NCBI GenBank assembly: GCA_902551755.1
Contig: CACDEB010000002.1
Coordinates: 62,001-126,000, forward strand
Origin: an uncultured Pelagibacteraceae bacterium
Lineage (GTDB): Bacteria > Pseudomonadota > Alphaproteobacteria > Pelagibacterales > Pelagibacteraceae
DNA length: 64,000 nt
Direction of reading: 5' to 3'
The position numbers and the translations under genes are program-made. Shown piece by piece: positions 42,453-50,316 of the stretch. Each line of letters begins with the position of its first letter. The first letter of the stretch is position 1. Under the pieces are notes generated by a model. That model was not told the DNA's origin and searched no databases. It saw only the letters and a program-made list of their open reading frames with translations.

Positions 42453-42538
42453 TGGTGCCCTCGGCCAGACTCGAACTGGCACTCCCAAAAGGGCAAGGAT
42501 TTTAAGTCCTTTGTGTCTACCAATTTCACCACGAGGGC
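42453..42538 (-). tRNA. tRNA-Leu (UAA anticodon), integration target
   Basis: An 86-base class II tRNA on the minus strand with encoded CCA. It starts GCCCTCG, pairs with CGAGGGC, has a variable arm, and the anticodon loop reads CTTAAAA. Bases 42500-42538, from the 5' end to the 3' edge of the anticodon loop, are part of the 41-base repeat also found at 50276. This copy is complete and should be functional, but its 5' half and everything upstream of it came from the integrated element. Confidence 0.95.
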
Positions 42539-42540
42539 AT
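42500..42540. repeat. attachment-site repeat, left copy (attL core)
   Basis: A 41-base sequence identical to 50276-50316 in direct orientation. It starts exactly at the anticodon loop (TTTTAAG on the plus strand), covers the 5' half of tRNA-Leu and extends two bases past the tRNA 5' end. The anticodon stem arms AAGGA/TCCTT on both sides of the loop give the symmetric site typical of tyrosine integrases that cross over in the anticodon loop. Confidence 0.92.
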
Positions 42541-42613
42541 TGTTAAAAAAGTCTTGAAATTTCATTGTTTTTTATATTCTTGTCTTAACATAGTCTATTA
42601 AAAAAATAAATTT

Positions 42614-42644
42614 ATCTCTCTAGTTTCTAGTTTGTTTCTAGTTT
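42614..42644. repeat. candidate integrase arm sites, left pair
   Basis: Two exact tandem copies of GTTTCTAGTTT (42623-42633 and 42634-42644), 85-104 bases from the att core. The 20-base stretch 42614-42633 is repeated without mismatch and in the same orientation at 50119-50138, near the other end. Placement on both sides of the core in the excised circle resembles the arm sites of lambda-type integrases. Confidence 0.55.
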
Positions 42645-42683
42645 GGAGTCTTTTCGGTTTGTATTTATCTATGTTTTTAGAGT

Positions 42684-42694
42684 CTTGGACCAAG
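42684..42694. repeat. short palindrome CTTGGaCCAAG
   Basis: A perfect 5+1+5 palindrome within the non-coding region. The same CTTGG/CCAAG arms reappear with a four-base loop at 42810-42823, so the motif may be a binding site for an element regulator. Confidence 0.35.
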
Positions 42695-42786
42695 GAAAAA
42701 TTAAACTCAAAAAGATAGTGTTTACTTATAAAACTAGAGTCAAAATTGAAATCCAGGGTTACCTAAATGTTCTCACTATAAAGCTC

Positions 42787-42823
42787 GTCCGTGCTGTTGC
42801 ACGGACTCGCTTGGATCACCAAG
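42787..42823. other. two adjacent perfect hairpins
   Basis: The first is an eight-base-pair perfect stem GTCCGTGC/GCACGGAC with a four-base loop (42787-42806). Three bases later comes a five-base-pair stem CTTGG/CCAAG with a four-base loop (42810-42823), immediately followed by the first GGGATCCTAA. The first is GC-rich against an AT-rich background and has no T-run on either side, so it is unlikely to be a simple terminator. A replication or processing structure is possible. Confidence 0.6.
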
Positions 42824-42824
42824 A

Positions 42825-43064
42825 GGGATCCTAACGAAACGTCAATCCTGGAGTCTTTTAGACCCCCTTACACCCCTTTTTTAGAAAGGGATCCTAATAG
42901 TTAGACCTATATAGCAAGTTAGACAAAGTCATAGACGTTGAAATCATTTTGAGTCTCAAAAAATATTATAAAAAAATTTTTTAAAATTTTATTTGAAAAG
43001 GCTCCCTGCATTGTAAATATTTTAGAAATCGGTAGGCAACCAGATCGCAATACAGGGATCCTAA
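42825..43064. repeat. GGGATCCTAA repeat, three copies
   Basis: Exact ten-base copies at 42825-42834, 42888-42897 and 43055-43064, all in the same orientation. They lie within 240 bases of the non-coding region; one follows the double hairpin directly. A candidate initiator or regulator binding repeat. Confidence 0.6.
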
Positions 43065-43132
43065 AGGTATTATTAACGATCCTTGTTGTATCATACTAGG
43101 CTCACGGATCAAGGAACAAGGTTAGTATTTGG

Positions 43133-43150
43133 AGTCCAACAAAGTCCAAC
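43133..43150. repeat. helically phased AGTCCAAC motifs
   Basis: AGTCCAAC occurs at 43133 and again exactly 10 bases later at 43143. Two weaker relatives (AGTCCTGC near 43152 and TGTCCAGC near 43162) continue the roughly 10-base spacing. Such phasing on one helix face is typical of iteron-like protein-binding arrays. Confidence 0.45.
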
Positions 43151-43184
43151 TAGTCCTGCTATGTCCAGCCTCTCACTCTCGTAC

Positions 43185-43476
43185 AAAACGTAACTTAATT
43201 CTCGTACAGGATAGTCTAATTCAAAGTAAGAAAACGTAACTTTTGATTTACGTTGATAGTCTCATTCACCAGGATTAAACGTTACAAAAGGTTACCATTG
43301 GTTAGTATGAATTCAAGCTAACATTAGTTAAGTTTTAGGGATCTCTAGGGTACATTAGGTAACATCAGCCTAGGAAAAGTATACATTTGTATACCCTGTT
43401 AAGCCTTTTAAAGTCCACATAAGTCCACATTAAATACTTTTTCAAAAGGTTTTTTGTAAGATTTTAGTTACGTTTT
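43185..43476. repeat. AAAACGTAAC iteron-like repeats
   Basis: Exact 12-base copies of AAAACGTAACTT at 43185-43196 and 43231-43242, plus an inverted ten-base copy GTTACGTTTT at 43467-43476. A related AAACGTTAC lies near 43278. CTCGTACA precedes the first copy (43178) and recurs at 43201. Confidence 0.55.
43411..43430. repeat. tandem ten-base repeat AAGTCCACAT
   Basis: Two exact adjacent copies (43411-43420, 43421-43430). The AGTCC core is shared with the phased motifs at 43133-43162, suggesting one binding protein for both clusters. Confidence 0.5.
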
Positions 43477-43655
43477 TGTGTTTTAGGTGTACTAGGTTTA
43501 CACTTTTATAGACTAGTCTGGGCTCCCTTAATTCATATCAAGGAATGCTAGAGAAACTATACTAACTAGGCTACTAGGCTCAACAGAAAAACTAATCTCT
43601 TATCTTTTAACAATTAGACAGAAGTTAGACGGAAGTTTTATTCAAGGTTAGTAGG

Positions 43656-43997
43656 TTAGTTATCTTCTAGTAAATTAAAAAAGTGTTCCATATCAATAAT
43701 AACTAAAGGTTTTTTCCTATTCATTTTAACAACTAGTAACGGCTCTAGTGGTCCGTGGTTTTTGGTTTGTTTAAAATGTTTATATATGGTCCTGTATTCT
43801 TCTCTGTTCTTACATTCAACATTATAGGGAAACAACTTTCTAGCAATCAAAGTTAAGAGCTTAATATCAGCTCCATTCTCATTAGCTCCAGGGCACTTAA
43901 TATCTTCCTTGGTCAATGTAGGAAACATCTTGATTATCCGATCACGGACCAGGTTCTGTAAGTATCTTGCTTTTTGTAGTCTAGATTTATTGTTCAT
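43656..43997 (-). CDS. small PD-(D/E)XK-like nuclease, putative
   Basis: A 113-residue protein ending the element's gene array. The segment GADIKLLTLIARKLFPYNVE followed by CK gives D44, E61 and K63, the spacing of a PD-(D/E)XK active site. The following strand EPLLVVKMNRKKPLVIID fits the nuclease core. Small proteins of this kind serve as phage resolvases or DNA-processing nucleases. It overlaps the primase-helicase stop by four bases, which supports a role in replication or resolution of replicated DNA. The family call rests on motif reading only. Confidence 0.6.
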   Translation of the reverse strand: MNNKSRLQKARYLQNLVRDRIIKMFPTLTKEDIKCPGANENGADIKLLTLIARKLFPYNVECKNREEYRTIYKHFKQTKNHGPLEPLLVVKMNRKKPLVIIDMEHFFNLLEDN

Positions 43998-46273
43998 TTT
44001 TGATCTGGGTATAATGGAACATAAAACTCATTAGCCAGGTCTTGTGCTGATCTATTGTGATATTGTTCCTGTTTTCTGATTAAATACAACGTAGGTCTAA
44101 TTAATTGTTGTTCCTTGTTGTTAGATACGTGGATCTTAACTTGTCCTAATCCACGTCCACCTATGCTGATTAATGCGTCTTTAACCTCATTTAATCTTCC
44201 TGGTGTTTTAGGTTTATTTTTCTCTAACCATTCGTGTAACTCTCTTGATCCAATAACAATACGATCTTCTGTAAATGGAAACTCACATTCCTCGTATAAT
44301 GTTCTGATCTGTGCTGTAAGTGGGTGTTCCCCTGCCTCTGACATTGATTGTAGAAATGGAGTCTTTGGAGCTATACCTTTTGGATTAAAACTTTCAGAGA
44401 TCTCTCTATTTTCTAATTCATAAAGTATTTCATTTGCTCCCTGGTTATCTAACCATTGGTGGTACTCATCATAAAAACTCTGCTCCATTCTAGGACGTTC
44501 AGATATGTAAACCCAATATCTCACATCATTAGCAGGAAGAGATAATGCGTCTTTGTTATTTGAGAAAATAATATAGTTCGTGCAGGTCTCAACTTCTCTG
44601 TATTCTTTGTAAAGCTCTCTAACGTTAATTACATCTTCGGTTATTATTCTTTTCAAATCATTTAATAATTTTTTCTTTTCATCAAAGTTTCCTTTTGATT
44701 GTGTTTCATCAATTAAACAAAGCTGACTATCTATTAAGAAAGTTTTAGATCTATCAACAGCCTGGTTAATATCTATCTCTCTGGTGTTGTTCTTACCAAT
44801 AGTTAACTTCATAGCTCTAAAGATTGATCCTTTTCCTACTTGGTAATGTGGAGTAACTAATATCAATCCATATCTAATTTTAATTCCTGGGTGTTGAACC
44901 ATATAAGCCCAGTAATCTAGAAAGTGGTCTATGTATTCTTTTTGTTTGTTAAAGATATGATCTAATAATTTATGTAATAAACTTGTATCACCTTTCGTTG
45001 CCTCAATGTTATTTGGTTTCCAACTATTAAGATATTTTAAGTTACCTCTGTAAAATATTGGATCACCTGGATTATATTCTGTTGGTTTACATACCCAGGT
45101 CTCAACTATCTTTCTATTTGGAATAGTCTTTAGCCAATTAGTACAGGCAACTCTTTGATTGAAATGTATTGCGTTCTCATAATTGATAGCCTCTTTTGAA
45201 TATTCTTTTCCTTTTTCAATATCATAAAACTTATCTACGTCTTTGATATAGACCAGGTTCTCAACTATCTTTTTTCTAGCATAACGAGGCTCTTCAATAT
45301 CAAATTTAGATCTAGCTCTTTGGACCTTTTTAAGAAAGTAATCATCTTCGTAAGCCTCACCTAAATACTCTCTAATCTTTTCAAGTATTACGTCATTGTC
45401 TAACTTTCCAACAACCATTTTACCAACTGATAACGTAACTAAATCATCATAGTAACTATCATCATCAAGACTCATTTTCTCATCTCTAATCTTTTTGAGT
45501 ATAGCCGTGTATGTCATATCTTGGATTTCAGGATCATTCATAGATCCCTCATCAAATTCTGGTGTATGTCCGAGTGGTTTAGTGGGATCTTCTTTTACAT
45601 CTTCATAGTCGTATTCGTTTAATTCTTCTTTGGTTAGTAAGTTATTTTCAACATTCCTAATAAATTGTTCTACATCTAACTCAAAGATTTCTGTTTTCTT
45701 GTGTGGGTTAACTACAATTCCTATTCCTGTTTGTCCCTTTTGTGAATGTAAGTTCCAGGCTCTATAAGGTATCTTTATTCCATTCCCTATCTCATCACCC
45801 TCAACTCTGTCTTGTTTAGGAAATATTTCTGTCTTTGGACTTAAACCTAAATACTTACAAATCTTTCGTAAGAAATTTCTCATTGTGTTACAGGACACAT
45901 AAGAATTCTCACCTATAAATGCGTAGATATGCAATCCTCTACTCTCTGAATAACAAGGGTGTAATTTATATTGTCTACACTTATCAATTATCGTGAGCTT
46001 TGTTTCTCGGTCCATATCGTAAGTGTCAACGTCTATTGCACCAAAACAACATTGATCCTCGTCTACAATAGGACTAGGGACTAATCCGTGTTCAGTTCTA
46101 TAATGGTTTGAGTAATGTTGTTCTTGTAATGGCTCTCTTATTCTTTGGTAATCAAAAAGTTTCTTTCCGTCTTTTCTAGTTCTTTTTAGATCAACTGCTT
46201 TGTAGCCGTTCTTTGCAAAAAATATGTTATGAAGTTTTTCTATTATCTCTTGCGAGTTCAATATTTCTGTCAT
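43994..46273 (-). CDS. primase-polymerase / SF3 helicase fusion, element replication protein
   Basis: A 759-residue protein, the largest of the element. The N-terminal archaeo-eukaryotic-type primase domain shows D81-x-D83 (GAIDVDTYD), SRGLHIYAF (residues 111-119) and EIFPKQ with GNGIKIPY (residues 149-170), the three catalytic blocks. A D5_N-like linker follows. The C-terminal SF3/D5 helicase has a Walker A QVGKGS (G480, K481, G482, S483), a Walker B LIDE (D522, E523) and motif C FSNN (N572, N573). It should open the element's origin, unwind DNA and prime replication, like P4 alpha or D5-type proteins. Its start lies 47 bases inside the preceding RHH-like gene. Confidence 0.88.
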   Translation of the reverse strand: MTEILNSQEIIEKLHNIFFAKNGYKAVDLKRTRKDGKKLFDYQRIREPLQEQHYSNHYRTEHGLVPSPIVDEDQCCFGAIDVDTYDMDRETKLTIIDKCRQYKLHPCYSESRGLHIYAFIGENSYVSCNTMRNFLRKICKYLGLSPKTEIFPKQDRVEGDEIGNGIKIPYRAWNLHSQKGQTGIGIVVNPHKKTEIFELDVEQFIRNVENNLLTKEELNEYDYEDVKEDPTKPLGHTPEFDEGSMNDPEIQDMTYTAILKKIRDEKMSLDDDSYYDDLVTLSVGKMVVGKLDNDVILEKIREYLGEAYEDDYFLKKVQRARSKFDIEEPRYARKKIVENLVYIKDVDKFYDIEKGKEYSKEAINYENAIHFNQRVACTNWLKTIPNRKIVETWVCKPTEYNPGDPIFYRGNLKYLNSWKPNNIEATKGDTSLLHKLLDHIFNKQKEYIDHFLDYWAYMVQHPGIKIRYGLILVTPHYQVGKGSIFRAMKLTIGKNNTREIDINQAVDRSKTFLIDSQLCLIDETQSKGNFDEKKKLLNDLKRIITEDVINVRELYKEYREVETCTNYIIFSNNKDALSLPANDVRYWVYISERPRMEQSFYDEYHQWLDNQGANEILYELENREISESFNPKGIAPKTPFLQSMSEAGEHPLTAQIRTLYEECEFPFTEDRIVIGSRELHEWLEKNKPKTPGRLNEVKDALISIGGRGLGQVKIHVSNNKEQQLIRPTLYLIRKQEQYHNRSAQDLANEFYVPLYPDQK

Positions 46274-46424
46274 TGTTAATAATTCCTTTTTGTGCTGACG
46301 TGGTTAATATCTCTATTGTTTTAGGTATTGAGATTTTGATACCTGGAATGATCTTGCCTGACAGATCATCTAATCTTGCTAATACAGATTTCTTTAATGC
46401 AACTGATGTAAATTTACTTCTCAT
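46227..46424 (-). CDS. ribbon-helix-helix-like small protein
   Basis: A 65-residue protein. The order strand-helix-helix in KFTSVALKKSVLARLDDLSG and IKISIPKTIEILTTSA resembles the RHH/CopG DNA-binding fold, in which a short N-terminal strand contacts DNA in a dimer. It precedes the replication gene and overlaps it by 47 bases, so it may regulate copy number or replication. The assignment is by pattern only; the unusual long overlap leaves some doubt about the precise ends. Confidence 0.5.
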   Translation of the reverse strand: MRSKFTSVALKKSVLARLDDLSGKIIPGIKISIPKTIEILTTSAQKGIINNDRNIELARDNRKTS

Positions 46425-46429
46425 AGTGT

Positions 46430-46666
46430 TTAATTATCTACTCTTTCTGGGTTCCAAAACTCTGCGAAATCCTTTGTCCTTTGTGATTTAATTACGTCCT
46501 GGAGCTCATAAATCTTATTAGTTAGTTTTGTTATTCTCTCGTTTTTGAGTCCTATCTCGGTCCATAGTTCCTGGATATGTGTTGATTGTTTTCCTAGTGT
46601 ATCTGTAAGTCTATCTGTAATAGATCCTTGTTGTTCAATCATATATTTTAATTCGTACTTATTCAT
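46430..46666 (-). CDS. small coiled-coil protein of unknown function
   Basis: I do not recognise this gene. The 78-residue product is predicted helical, with a heptad-like pattern through LWTEIGLKNERITKLTNKIY. It has charged ends and no cysteine or signal peptide. It overlaps the upstream 247-residue gene by eight bases and ends five bases before the RHH-like gene, so it is part of the same transcript. Confidence 0.6.
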   Translation of the reverse strand: MNKYELKYMIEQQGSITDRLTDTLGKQSTHIQELWTEIGLKNERITKLTNKIYELQDVIKSQRTKDFAEFWNPERVDN

Positions 46667-47402
46667 CTATACCCAACAGATAAGCTAATCCCCCTTGCCT
46701 CTCTGCCTTTGCTCTTCGTTGATCTTCCAACATCTCTTGAAATTGTTGTTCTCTAATTTTATCTTCTATTGTTTGTTCAATAGGTTTAAAGTTTTGTGTG
46801 AGTATTGTTGTGTCTACTTTTGGAATTGTAACTTCTGGTGGTTTATAAGCTGAAATAAATCTTTTTTCTTTTTCAGTAAAATATTTTCTTTGGTTTGGAT
46901 CTTTGTATTTATCTCGTAAGTATTTCCTCATTTCTTTTTTTTCCCTCGCTGTGCCAGATTTGATTGTTGTATCTAATATTAAATCCCAACTAGATATTCT
47001 TTGTCTTTGGTCCCTGTCGCTAGGATAACTAGAGGGATCATTATTATTGAACGGCTTTGGTCTCTTTCCGTAATTCTCTTCGTCTATAATATTTGGATTG
47101 TTGTAGTGTAGTGGTGGTTTGTCGTTTGGCTTTCCGTCATATTGGTAAACCATTCTTTGTATTCTCTCATCTAGGTTTTCTTTTCTAACTATTGGTTTAG
47201 ATCCGTCTTTAAACTTTTTAATTGTTTGTGTCTTTGGTGGTACGGCTCCAGGCTTACGTACAGGGACATCTTTTTTCTTTTCAGAAAAATCAAACTCTAA
47301 TTGTTTGTATTCTTTTTTCTTACCCAGGTTATCTGCAATCTTTGTGAAAGGTTTCTCATCATCAATTAAAGTGTTATTTATGGGATCTACAATATAAGCC
47401 AT
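46659..47402 (-). CDS. hydrophilic, largely disordered protein of unknown function
   Basis: I do not recognise this 247-residue protein. It is rich in Lys, Asp, Pro, Gln and Asn, with long stretches of low complexity and no membrane segment. A moderately ordered centre (SSWDLILDTTIKSGTAREKK) and a helical C-terminus ending QGGLAYLLGIDE are visible. Gly-rich C-terminal endings of this kind occur, as far as I recall, in small proteins of marine phages, but that is weak evidence. In a satellite this would be a candidate for interaction with helper-phage packaging or virion proteins; nothing in the sequence proves it. Confidence 0.6.
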   Translation of the reverse strand: MAYIVDPINNTLIDDEKPFTKIADNLGKKKEYKQLEFDFSEKKKDVPVRKPGAVPPKTQTIKKFKDGSKPIVRKENLDERIQRMVYQYDGKPNDKPPLHYNNPNIIDEENYGKRPKPFNNNDPSSYPSDRDQRQRISSWDLILDTTIKSGTAREKKEMRKYLRDKYKDPNQRKYFTEKEKRFISAYKPPEVTIPKVDTTILTQNFKPIEQTIEDKIREQQFQEMLEDQRRAKAERQGGLAYLLGIDE

Positions 47403-47404
47403 TA

Positions 47405-47758
47405 TTATTTGTCCTTTAGCTTTTCTAGTAGTTCGGCTTTTCTAACTCGTTCTATGTATTTAGTTAGATCTTCACCAGGCATTACATCTATTCCCTTTTC
47501 AAATGCGTCTAGTAACTCTTCGTATTTCTCACCAACAGATCCACCATTATTCAATTCAATTCTTTTGAGTTCGTCTAGTGGTTTACTCTTTAGCCAATCA
47601 GAGAAACTTTGTCCTTTGGACTTCTCTTTCTCATACATTTCTTTCAGAGAATTAAGTAGGTCCTGTTGAACATCAAATTCAATCTTTTCTAGATCTGCCA
47701 TTAATCCTTTTCCGTCTTTGCTCTCTAGTGGTTTGTCTATGTTGTTAAGTGGTTTCAT
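47405..47758 (-). CDS. helical protein of unknown function
   Basis: I do not recognise this 117-residue protein. It is mostly helical and charged, with the segments YEKEKSKGQSFSDWLKSKP and RIELNNGGSVGEKYEELLDA. It overlaps the AlpA-type gene by four bases (ATGA) and is followed after two bases by the disordered protein, so all three are translationally linked. Confidence 0.6.
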   Translation of the reverse strand: MKPLNNIDKPLESKDGKGLMADLEKIEFDVQQDLLNSLKEMYEKEKSKGQSFSDWLKSKPLDELKRIELNNGGSVGEKYEELLDAFEKGIDVMPGEDLTKYIERVRKAELLEKLKDK

Positions 47759-48033
47759 TGTTTTATTTTCTTTAGTGTTTGGATTGCTATTACTTTGTCC
47801 TGGAGTTCGTAATCGTATTTAACTTTTTTATTTGCTTTGTGTTCCTGTAACCAATTCACAAAGATAACAGGATCCCACACTACTAATCGTGGACCGAGGA
47901 TCACCTTACCCATTAAAGCAGGATCATTCCCTTGGCTTATCCATTCATTTTGAAATCTATAAAATGTTGCTTTTGATATGCTAAACAACTTTAAGATCTG
48001 CCAGGACTTGCAATATTTTTGTTTAAATTCCAT
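47755..48033 (-). CDS. AlpA/MerR-like helix-turn-helix regulator or excisionase
   Basis: A 92-residue protein. SWQILKLFSISKATFYRFQN (about residues 10-29) forms a winged-helix-type HTH, and GKVILGPRLVVWDPVIFVNW resembles the wing and trailing strand of AlpA-type proteins. AlpA of P4-like satellites switches on int and excision; excisionases share this fold. It is the first gene of a tightly coupled run after a 42-base gap and is a candidate control switch of the element. Confidence 0.65.
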   Translation of the reverse strand: MEFKQKYCKSWQILKLFSISKATFYRFQNEWISQGNDPALMGKVILGPRLVVWDPVIFVNWLQEHKANKKVKYDYELQDKVIAIQTLKKIKQ

Positions 48034-48075
48034 ATCACCTGGATATGAAAAAATATTATAAAATAATACGTAGAG

Positions 48076-48417
48076 TTATTTAGTTTTATTAAGTCTACTT
48101 TTTTTCAAATAGGTCTTAATTGTAGGGTACTTTTTAAGATAACTTCTAGATTTAAAATCCTTTAGCCAACGTTCAACGTGCTTATAGTAGAATGCTTTGA
48201 GTCTATCTTGACTAGATTTAAAATGTTTTATTTGTTGTGGTGTCTTTCTGTGAAACAACATTAGATCATCAAAAGCCTCGTGCTTTGATAATTGATACCA
48301 GGCTTTCAAGGGTGATATATTTTCTTTTGTAACTATTTCTATGATCTTTAGAGTAACTAAAACTCTAACATTAATATTGATCCGAGGTTGACCTCGTTTC
48401 TTCTTCCTGGTTGCCAT
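48076..48417 (-). CDS. basic protein of unknown function
   Basis: I do not recognise this 113-residue protein. It is strongly basic, with a Lys/Arg-rich N-terminus and C-terminal tail and a helical middle (VTLKIIEIVTKENISPLKAW) that could include a DNA-binding helix. It overlaps the zinc-ribbon gene by 47 bases, in a different frame. Confidence 0.55.
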   Translation of the reverse strand: MATRKKKRGQPRININVRVLVTLKIIEIVTKENISPLKAWYQLSKHEAFDDLMLFHRKTPQQIKHFKSSQDRLKAFYYKHVERWLKDFKSRSYLKKYPTIKTYLKKSRLNKTK

Positions 48418-48574
48418 TCAAGGTTATAGCATTAGCCTTGAAACATTTCACACAAATATTTCCTTTCTGTTTCCCATATTGAACAACACCTATGATCTTT
48501 CCCATTCTGTTACAATTAAAACAAAGATCTTTTTCGTTACTTAAATTTAAGCACTTTGCTAACTTGTTCTGCAT
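48371..48574 (-). CDS. small zinc-ribbon-like protein
   Basis: A 67-residue protein with two CxxC pairs (C18, C21 and C41, C44) separated by 19 residues, the layout of a zinc ribbon. Function unknown; zinc ribbons in mobile elements often act as DNA-binding regulators. Its start lies 38 bases inside the end of the integrase gene and its end overlaps the basic protein by 47 bases. Confidence 0.6.
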   Translation of the reverse strand: MQNKLAKCLNLSNEKDLCFNCNRMGKIIGVVQYGKQKGNICVKCFKANAITLNGNQEEETRSTSDQY

Positions 48575-50174
48575 ATTCCCTCACTTGTTCTGGTGTATGT
48601 TTATCATAATAAGTCTCTAGTGTGCTTTCCTGGTTATGTCCTGTTAACTGAATAGCTTTACTACTTGTACCAAGAGTAAGTTTAGCAATAGAGCTATAAG
48701 TCTTTCTCAACATCTTCGGAGCACCATTAATATTAGTTAGATCTTTTAATGCTTTCCAACACCCTCGTAATTCTCTGGTCCTGCATTGATCTGAACGGAC
48801 ATATTTATCTGAATGTAACTTCTTTGAATTAATTCTTGTTGTAGGAAATAACCAATCAACAAATCTATATTTCTGATAAGTGGTTTCTAGTTTCTTGTCT
48901 AACATATCAAGGACCACGGATATAGGATCAGTAATATAAATAATCTCTTCTTTTCTAGCTTTAGTTATTCCTGCAGGAAGTATTATTCTAGTTTTATCTT
49001 TTGTTATATGGGATCTTCTTATCTTCAAAGTCTCTTCGGCTCTTCGTCCTGTTACCAACATAAAGAGTAGAGCCTCGCTTTGAAATGGATATTTGTCAGC
49101 TAGATTAATTAATGTTGTGTAAATTGTTTTTAATTCGTCATCAGTAAATCTCTGATTATTATATCTAGTTCCAGGTGATTGTTTTAATGTAGGTTTAATT
49201 AGTCTTAATTTGTTTACAGGGTTATCAGGAATATCTTTAGAAAATAAATCTCTAGTATTAGCAAAAGCCCAGAGAGTTCTAAAAGCCTCTTTTAGTTTGT
49301 CCTGTTGTCCCCAACTCTTTTCTGTTGAGTTAAAAAATATCTTTAATTTTCTTGTAGTTAAGTCATCAATCTTTGTTTGTCCTATTGCACTATCATAAAC
49401 AGATCTCTCATCATTCTTATTCAAATAGTGTGGAGCTTTAATTATTCCGTGTCCTGCAGGAAACTTTTTAAATAAATCGTCCCAATCTTCTGGTCTCTTT
49501 GTTCTTTTCTTTTCGTGGTGTGTGAATGCTATTACCCCTGATCCTGTATGATCTTCTGAATAAACCAGGTGTTGTGATCGCCAATTATAACCAATTAAAA
49601 ATTTAATATGATCTCTGATTGATGTTGCTGATAATCTTCTGTCAGATCTAGCACTAGGGAAATTAGCCTTACACAATCTTTCTATAACTTGATTAATGGT
49701 TAATGTTTCCTGGTCCCTAATATTATCTTCTTTGATCTTGCTCTCTTCTTGTTGGATCGTGGAACGAGGATCTTTGATCCATAATCCTTTGTCGTTAGTG
49801 TGAGCTTTATAGATCTCAAATACTTTATCCTCACATTGTCTTACACCAAATTTATCAGGAACGAATTGACCAATAGTTATATAATCAGCTTTGCTCTGAT
49901 ACCAAAACTGCAACACAAAAAACTTATTATTTGATTTTCTTGCCTGTCTTAACTTAATCCCTTTGAGATAAGAATTCTTTGTTACATCAAAAGGGGTAAT
50001 TGTATGATTTCTAATTCCTATGATGTTTCCGTCTTTGTCTAGCTTATGATAACTGCTTTGATAATTGTTTATCGCAAAGTCTGTAAATTTTAATTTAAAC
50101 TTGTTTCTAGTTTTCAGGATCTCTCTAGTTTCTAGTTTAAGATCTAGTTTGCTATCGGTTTCTTTCTGGCTCAT
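48537..50174 (-). CDS. int: tyrosine integrase, long form
   Basis: A 545-residue phage-type tyrosine recombinase. About 150 N-terminal residues form an arm-binding-like region, then a core-binding helical region, then the catalytic domain: R378 with E381 in TGRRAEETL, lysine near K405, MLR490 in place of HxLR, H513 in TGHNQESTLE and the nucleophile Y522 or Y523 in ETYYDK. The position usually His in HxxR is K487. It should catalyse integration and excision at tRNA-Leu. The gene starts 101 bases inside the right att site and reads away from it. Its 5' end carries two of the candidate arm sites. Confidence 0.93.
   Translation of the reverse strand: MSQKETDSKLDLKLETREILKTRNKFKLKFTDFAINNYQSSYHKLDKDGNIIGIRNHTITPFDVTKNSYLKGIKLRQARKSNNKFFVLQFWYQSKADYITIGQFVPDKFGVRQCEDKVFEIYKAHTNDKGLWIKDPRSTIQQEESKIKEDNIRDQETLTINQVIERLCKANFPSARSDRRLSATSIRDHIKFLIGYNWRSQHLVYSEDHTGSGVIAFTHHEKKRTKRPEDWDDLFKKFPAGHGIIKAPHYLNKNDERSVYDSAIGQTKIDDLTTRKLKIFFNSTEKSWGQQDKLKEAFRTLWAFANTRDLFSKDIPDNPVNKLRLIKPTLKQSPGTRYNNQRFTDDELKTIYTTLINLADKYPFQSEALLFMLVTGRRAEETLKIRRSHITKDKTRIILPAGITKARKEEIIYITDPISVVLDMLDKKLETTYQKYRFVDWLFPTTRINSKKLHSDKYVRSDQCRTRELRGCWKALKDLTNINGAPKMLRKTYSSIAKLTLGTSSKAIQLTGHNQESTLETYYDKHTPEQVREYAEQVSKVLKFK
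50103..50138. repeat. candidate integrase arm sites, right pair
   Basis: Two copies of GTTTCTAGTTT at 50103-50113 and 50128-50138, inside the first codons of the integrase gene. The 20 bases 50119-50138 equal 42614-42633 at the other end. One further copy of the 11-mer lies at 48883-48893 in the same gene, so the motif is not unique to the ends. Confidence 0.5.
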
Positions 50175-50236
50175 AGTCTACTTTCTAATCGTTCAAATAA
50201 TCTTATCAATTCTTTTCAAGATCTTTGAAACTCTAT

Positions 50237-50253
50237 GAGACTACCAGAGACTA
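50237..50253. repeat. phased GAGACTA motifs next to the right att core
   Basis: GAGACTA at 50237-50243 and 50247-50253, spaced ten bases, 23 to 39 bases from the att core and upstream of int. Placement and phasing suit an excisionase or regulator binding site. Confidence 0.4.
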
Positions 50254-50275
50254 ACTAAATTGTGAATCCTCTGCC

Positions 50276-50316
50276 TTTTAAGTCCTTTGTGTCTACCAAT
50301 TTCACCACGAGGGCAT
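50276..50316. repeat. attachment-site repeat, right copy (attR) with tRNA-Leu 5' fragment
   Basis: Identical to 42500-42540. On the minus strand it reads as the first 39 bases of tRNA-Leu, ending at the 3' edge of the anticodon loop, and then runs into element DNA. It cannot fold into a full tRNA. It marks the chromosomal 5' half that stayed behind at integration. The native upstream DNA of the tRNA continues beyond 50317. Confidence 0.9.

Follow-up and report, generated by a model that had tools for sequence, protein, structure and literature searches.

A start-codon-matching hairpin in the control region of an integrated PICMI-like satellite of Pelagibacteraceae: a proposed antisense RNA

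P4, P1, P7 and N15 are known to control early genes by antisense RNA, and such control has been proposed for PLE (PMC4825925, PMC7567579). In PICMI (phage-inducible chromosomal minimalist islands), satellites of Vibrionaceae that are packaged as concatemers, expression of AlpA alone induces excision (PMC10803314). The 64,000-nucleotide stretch of DNA analysed here (the window) contains an integrated element of 7.8 kb (42541–50316) that resembles PICMI in being small, in having large non-coding regions and no capsid genes (none was found among the element ORFs), and in combining an integrase gene and an overlapping small gene with an AlpA-like gene and a DUF5906 primase-helicase. The genes all lie on the minus strand and comprise a tyrosine integrase (48537–50174; PF00589, 3.4e-10, the integrase family of PICMI), p67 (48371–48574), which overlaps the integrase gene like iolg of PICMI, p113, a basic protein of 113 aa (48076–48417) with homologues in L020, L029, L023 and L035, a putative AlpA-like regulator or excisionase (47755–48033), p117, p247, p78, p65, the primase-helicase (43994–46273) and a RusA/PDDEXK-like nuclease (43656–43997; phrog_244, 2.4e-11). 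AlpA of PICMI is recognised by PF05930 or PF12728; here, syntenic homologues were accompanied by a weak PF05930 match (E 0.03) below the cut-off. The primase of PICMI carries DUF3987 and DUF5906, of which only the latter (PF19263, 4e-11) was matched, as part of an SF3-type helicase, with an AEP-TOTE primase (PF22548, 4.6e-12) in place of DUF3987. A PDB sequence search gave nothing informative, and the predicted structure of the primase-helicase aligned with NrS-1 (6k9c; Z 25.1, rmsd 6.5, 373 aligned) and SaPI5 Pri-Rep (7ola; Z 18.0, rmsd 4.6, 281 aligned), its N-terminal part also with CAPP Prim-Pol (7nqf; Z 11.7, rmsd 3.9, 186 aligned).

The element differs from PICMI in residing in a tRNA-Leu(taa) gene rather than beside fis, in having RusA, p113, p117, p247 and p78, and in its Pelagibacteraceae host. 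The first-pass annotation had interpreted the non-coding region of this DNA as the origin layout of a P4-like element. A mobile element is indeed present, and a conserved non-coding control region lies next to its primase-helicase, but P4-like gene content is lacking: no match to the capsid and regulatory genes Sid, Psu and Delta/Ogr was found among the element ORFs in Pfam or PHROGs, and the combination of integrase, weakly matched AlpA (E 0.03) and primase-helicase is shared with PICMI and thus not diagnostic. Judged by its gene content, the element is PICMI-like rather than P4-like, PICMI being the closest layout.

The boundaries of the element are defined by a 41-bp direct repeat, as in tRNA-integrating elements with tyrosine recombinases. 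One copy (42500–42540, minus strand) reaches from the anticodon loop to slightly beyond the 5' end of an intact tRNA-Leu(taa) gene (42453–42538, minus strand; ARAGORN), which was reconstituted by integration, and the other, identical copy (50276–50316, minus strand) contains only the 5' half of the tRNA. In relatives that lack the element, the sequence found beyond 50316 in the window stands directly ahead of tRNA-Leu. Because of the repeat and these empty sites, 42541–50316 is identified as an insertion that captured the 5' half of the tRNA gene. The native tRNA-Leu promoter has thereby been displaced and now lies 7.8 kb from the tRNA. The element DNA ahead of the tRNA, which resembles that of G403 and L031 and differs from the native upstream sequence, presumably serves as a replacement promoter (candidate TAGACT-15-TATAAA, 42563–42597, minus strand). 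Short repeats at both ends of an element are the usual layout of integrase arm sites, and the GTTTCTAGTTT repeats, found at both ends of this one, look like such sites: tandem AAACTAGAAAC copies occur near the attachment site (42614–42644, minus strand) and again at the integrase end (50101–50150, minus strand), with 20 bp of identity between the former and 50119–50138. Other elements have differing short tandem repeats, by eye, at the place near the attachment site. Some attachment sites are more complex. The far copy in G403 is preceded by another element-like promoter and not by the native one (L020:4971, L020:13777), so that a second element is probably present in tandem at the same tRNA, and G182 has three copies (L021:1241, 4188 and 14392), two of them with native-like upstream sequence, probably representing two tandem insertions of which one carries a copy of the native promoter.

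Used as queries, the integrase, primase and RusA recovered more than 20 relatives with a common layout in Pelagibacteraceae genomes and viral contigs, several of them circular; the same gene order was found in G403, G182, G191, G438, G437, G585 and others. Primase-only searches of IMG/VR and genome_contigs gave no match, and it was the RusA query that recovered the family. Carriers with a name are mostly Pelagibacteraceae, the other matches coming from the genus or family of the window genome, which is Pelagibacter-like. In eight viral contigs, 55–752 bases are repeated exactly at the two termini, as expected of circular or head-to-tail molecules, and in several of these the non-coding region is joined to the integrase via the attachment core, which corresponds to the 5' half of a tRNA, either tRNA-Leu or a different one. 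The replication gene has been swapped among elements with common flanking genes and control region (L031:4664–7171, L029:4351–6375, L023:5175–7748), with differing primase parts and DUF5906 or AAA_25 helicases. In the G438 element, the integrase is split in pieces with a TGA stop (L029:8927–10275), and this copy may therefore be defective.

Between the RusA-like ORF, which ends at 43656, and the tRNA, which starts at 42538 on the minus strand, positions 42541–43655 contain only a 63-aa chance ORF. The first-pass annotation had described this region as free of genes, rich in repeats and provided with two perfect hairpins and an A/T-only tract, and this description holds. Direct pairs of 9-, 10- and 11-mers number 36, 19 and 10, against 7.7, 2.3 and 0.6 in dinucleotide shuffles, and none of 300 shuffles was as high. 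Compared with 157 equally sized segments of the 64 kb, the repeat count ranks sixth, which is high without being unique, and inverted repeats are not enriched over shuffles in the region (p 0.09–0.2). The perfect hairpins are GTCCGTGC-AACA-GCACGGAC, inside 42781–42812, and CTTGG-TGAT-CCAAG, at 42810–42823, and the tract at 42956–42994, read on the minus strand, has 37 bp solely of A/T, forming a possible DNA unwinding element. The short repeats are for the most part peculiar to the window element, and little enrichment was seen in the corresponding regions of close relatives. At this place the relatives have related non-coding DNA, and many also have an extra gene between rusA and the control region (e.g. 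L021:13359–13973, L023:8089–8862, L029:3042–3719), which is absent from the window and from L035 and L037. Derivation of the region from a helper phage was considered and discarded, no convincing match to it or to its L031 equivalent having been found in phage records.

Toward the tRNA, the region consists of a variable segment that contains AACGTAAC repeats and runs from 43655 to about 43090, a conserved motif, a hairpin that we call S0, the A/T tract, a block of about 130 nt ending in a second hairpin (H2), the tandem repeats and the tRNA promoter. AAAACGTAACTT repeats (at 43185 and 43231; 43185–43242, plus strand) lie in the repeat-rich segment 43090–43655, which is specific to the window, and a AGGGATCCTAA repeat occurs at 42824–42834 (plus strand), 42887–42897 and 43054–43064. 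We consider it likely that the region as a whole constitutes the control end of an integrated PICMI-like satellite, made up of an attachment arm, an antisense RNA gene (S0) on the gene-sense strand, and the A/T tract with the block containing H2 and the small hairpin H1.

S0 occupies 43000–43061 on the minus strand, or 43000–43077 with the conserved motif GTTAATAATACC (ATTAGTAATAC in relatives; 43066–43077, minus strand), which lies just upstream, close to where the RNA presumably begins. It is found at the same place in 17 elements, namely those in which the motif was located, and folds better than shuffles (z −3.6 in the window, −2.7 to −7.8 in 16 relatives), though the stem sequences are quite different between elements. 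In G093, L123, L121 and L039, S0 was not clearly located. The promoter scan called no S0 promoter in the window, but did so in L037 (TTGGCC-16-TATTAT), and Rfam gave no relevant match, either for the window region at E up to 10 or for eight relatives at the gathering threshold.

The apical loop of S0 (CTGGTTGCC; 43035–43043, minus strand) is complementary to ATGGCAACCAG at 48417, the start of p113, and the corresponding site, TATAAC-CTTGA-ATGGCAACCAGG (48406–48428, minus strand), forms the best duplex of the whole element (−18.4 kcal/mol). Complementarity between the loop and a start codon was observed in 14 of the 15 elements tested, with matches of 13 nt in G438, 12 nt in L034, 10 nt in G403 and 9 nt in the window. 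The loop matches the element's own p113 start in G403, G438, L031, L034, L035 and L037, a single loop fits the starts of both int and alpA in five elements (L045, L054, L056, L061 and L147), and the match is to int in L060 and to alpA in L032. In most cases the gene start is the best or nearly the best duplex site of the whole element, and primase starts score poorly in nearly all elements. Shuffled loops were seldom as good (0–3 of 1000 in most elements); in L031 the match is of only 7 nt, and 53 of 1000 shuffles equalled it. No matching start was found in G182, where the hairpin is present, and no start-codon match in L019, L022, L039, L121 and L123. L238, fetched later, fits the pattern (−22.7 kcal/mol), and in L036, L038 and L040, related members of a distant branch that amount to roughly a single case, two hairpins are separated by an unpaired CTTTTTCATA that fits the start of the gene following int. 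The conserved motif itself was also considered as a general partner of the primase start and rejected, since good pairing was restricted to the window, L037 and L035; in the window, GTTAATAAT within the motif is complementary to ATTATTAAC (46275–46283), which immediately precedes the primase start, with similar complementarity only in L035 and L037, and in L031 and L244 the motif fits the gene after int instead.

Moreover, loop and target covary: own pairs beat swapped pairs among 13 elements (permutation p 5e-5), and within the window group of five the p value of 0.007 was the lowest attainable. This covariation makes an antisense RNA the likely identity of S0, and the pairing with start codons favours such an RNA over an origin hairpin. 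Most likely, on these sequence comparisons, S0 silences the excision genes. The targets have a −10-like box 5–8 nt before the ATG, and their messages are therefore probably leaderless. In the window, the early gene contacted at its start codon by the S0 loop would be p113, which adjoins the integrase gene; in another branch, the contact would be with alpA and int. Such a duplex would cover the 5' end of a leaderless message together with its start codon and so prevent translation from being initiated. In this way S0 could silence the excision and induction module while the element is integrated, and would render the cell immune to a second copy. Since AlpA alone triggers excision of PICMI (PMC10803314), silencing of alpA and int would be sensible, and an antisense RNA would be well placed to maintain dormancy.

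Complementarity of this kind would also arise if the loop sequence were a DNA operator, bound by a repressor both in the S0 region and at the starts of int, alpA or p113, and a repressor could indeed act at the complementary sequence, which coincides with the transcription start predicted for the targets. We regard this as improbable, as the sequence occupies the apical loop of a hairpin that stays paired although its stem varies freely, an arrangement for which a double-stranded operator has no need. Still more improbable is that S0 does no more than terminate transcription of the gene operon: in several relatives a short run of T comes after the stem (TTTTTT in L122), but others (L061, G182) have none, the run in the window is short and no terminator was called there, and the loop of a terminator would not be expected to match start codons.

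The second conserved hairpin, H2 (42781–42812, minus strand), has a tandem GA/GA mismatch and an AACA loop, and ends a block of about 130 nt that begins with a CTAAAGG-like motif (42783–42914, minus strand; 123–134 nt in the window and eight relatives). H1 (42810–42823, minus strand) is the small CTTGG hairpin of the same block. As MAFFT misaligned the hairpins of S0 and of this block, each hairpin was compared individually. In an equivalent position on the same strand, H2 recurs with its symmetric GA/GA step and an AACA, GAA or GCA loop in the window, G403, G093, G438, L031, L035/L037, L122, L123, L023 and L034, as well as in the later-fetched loci L238, L242 and L244 (GACA loop), and such hairpins with at least nine pairs were exclusive to the element family in 2.0 Mb of fetched sequence. 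DNA patterns of the block, run against viral contigs and 399 genomes, revealed no further element; the other matches examined, in four viral contigs and at seven genome loci, apparently host genes, had no G.A hairpin. H2 was rejected as a terminator, most relatives lacking a T-run. A DnaA-box-like TTATCCACA was seen about 60–80 nt downstream of H2 in L029 and L122, which have the same primase type, and not in the window.

H2 is kept with AEP-DUF5906, Prim-Pol-DUF5906, Toprim-like (by eye) and AAA_25 replicases, and also in G093, which has a different integrase and no RusA, so that it is unlikely to be read by the replicase or integrase of the element. A possible explanation, which we advance tentatively, is that H2 and its block form a packaging or replication signal read on single-stranded DNA by a helper-phage or host factor, or else the structured end of a longer RNA. 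The near-constant spacing despite differing integrases, replicases and nucleases would suit such a signal, and G.A tandems and GNA loops are stable in DNA. On the other hand, H2 was not found in three pelagiphages (one of them examined in part) or in the fetched rusA-bearing phage contigs, and the phage collection contained no convincing similar DNA.

The first-pass annotation had seen the repeats and hairpins as parts of an iteron-type origin. What survives of this is the A/T-rich tract next to the replication gene; the GTTTCTAGTTT repeats and the last 70 bp or so, resembling integrase arm sites and a tRNA promoter, respectively, suggest other roles. Of the hairpins, S0 pairs with start codons, and the presence of H2 beside unrelated replication helicases argues against its recognition by the element's own replicase. 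That the region is, or also is, a replication origin, in which the primase-helicase would bind the GGATCC or AACGTAAC repeats, melt the A/T tract and prime synthesis, is nevertheless conceivable, if somewhat short of probable, and compatible with an antisense RNA. The tract is flanked by repeats on both sides, the structural model of the primase-helicase is closest to NrS-1 and SaPI5 Pri-Rep, and the existence of circular, complete relatives indicates that the elements probably replicate. In pRN1, moreover, the origin stem-loop lies just downstream of an AEP-SF3-winged-helix replication gene and is kept in structure but variable in sequence (PMC4234260), a precedent which, together with the position of the A/T tract, keeps the origin reading alive. 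GGATCC copies occur in the window, L035 and L037, and are absent or different in G403 and L123 of the same replicase type. Against the origin reading, the repeats are mostly private to the window element. The A/T tract, which follows S0 in most relatives, and the block with H2 are retained beside unrelated replication helicases (L029, with AAA_25, and L122, of the same primase type), and S0, the best pRN1-like hairpin, which adjoins the tract, is accounted for by its start-codon pairing. The A/T tract and its flanking repeats could nonetheless serve as an origin, beside the antisense RNA proposed for S0.

SAR11 bacteria are among the most abundant in the ocean, and we know of no account of how their integrated satellites are silenced. 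A rule of pairing between loop and start codon would make immunity groups readable from sequence alone and could be tested with reporters; it also corrects a tempting interpretation, in which such regions are plain origins, and draws attention to the conserved hairpin H2. More speculatively, and in our view doubtful as a whole, SAR11 satellites could share a two-part cassette, in which a hypervariable antisense RNA is re-matched in each lineage to the start codons of leaderless excision genes, defining immunity groups, and a hairpin with tandem G.A mismatches, which persists alongside replication modules unrelated to one another, is recognised by a factor of the host or of a helper phage and serves packaging or replication.

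VEIMEs and tycheposons, which are carried in virions (cited in PMC10803314), are likewise marine and integrative; for PICMI, the passages covered describe no antisense RNA. Hairpins beside AEP primase genes are known from pRN1 (PMC4234260), where structure is kept and sequence varies, and from RSF1010 (ssiA and ssiB; PMC4434180), but here the most conserved hairpin matches start codons and H2 is independent of the replicase type. The closest functional parallel is the CI RNA of P4 and its relatives in phiR73, P1, P7 and N15, with the IIR transcript of PLE, which are antisense RNAs of satellites or phages complementary to their own early-gene leaders (PMC4825925, PMC7567579). The CI RNA of P4 acts by premature termination, whereas the complementarity of S0 is to the start codons of genes that adjoin int and seem to be leaderless, and the S0 region gave no relevant match to the Rfam model of the C4-type antisense RNAs of P1 and P4. 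By analogy, we propose that S0 is the same kind of antisense device as those of P4, P1, P7 and N15, with a new anatomy.
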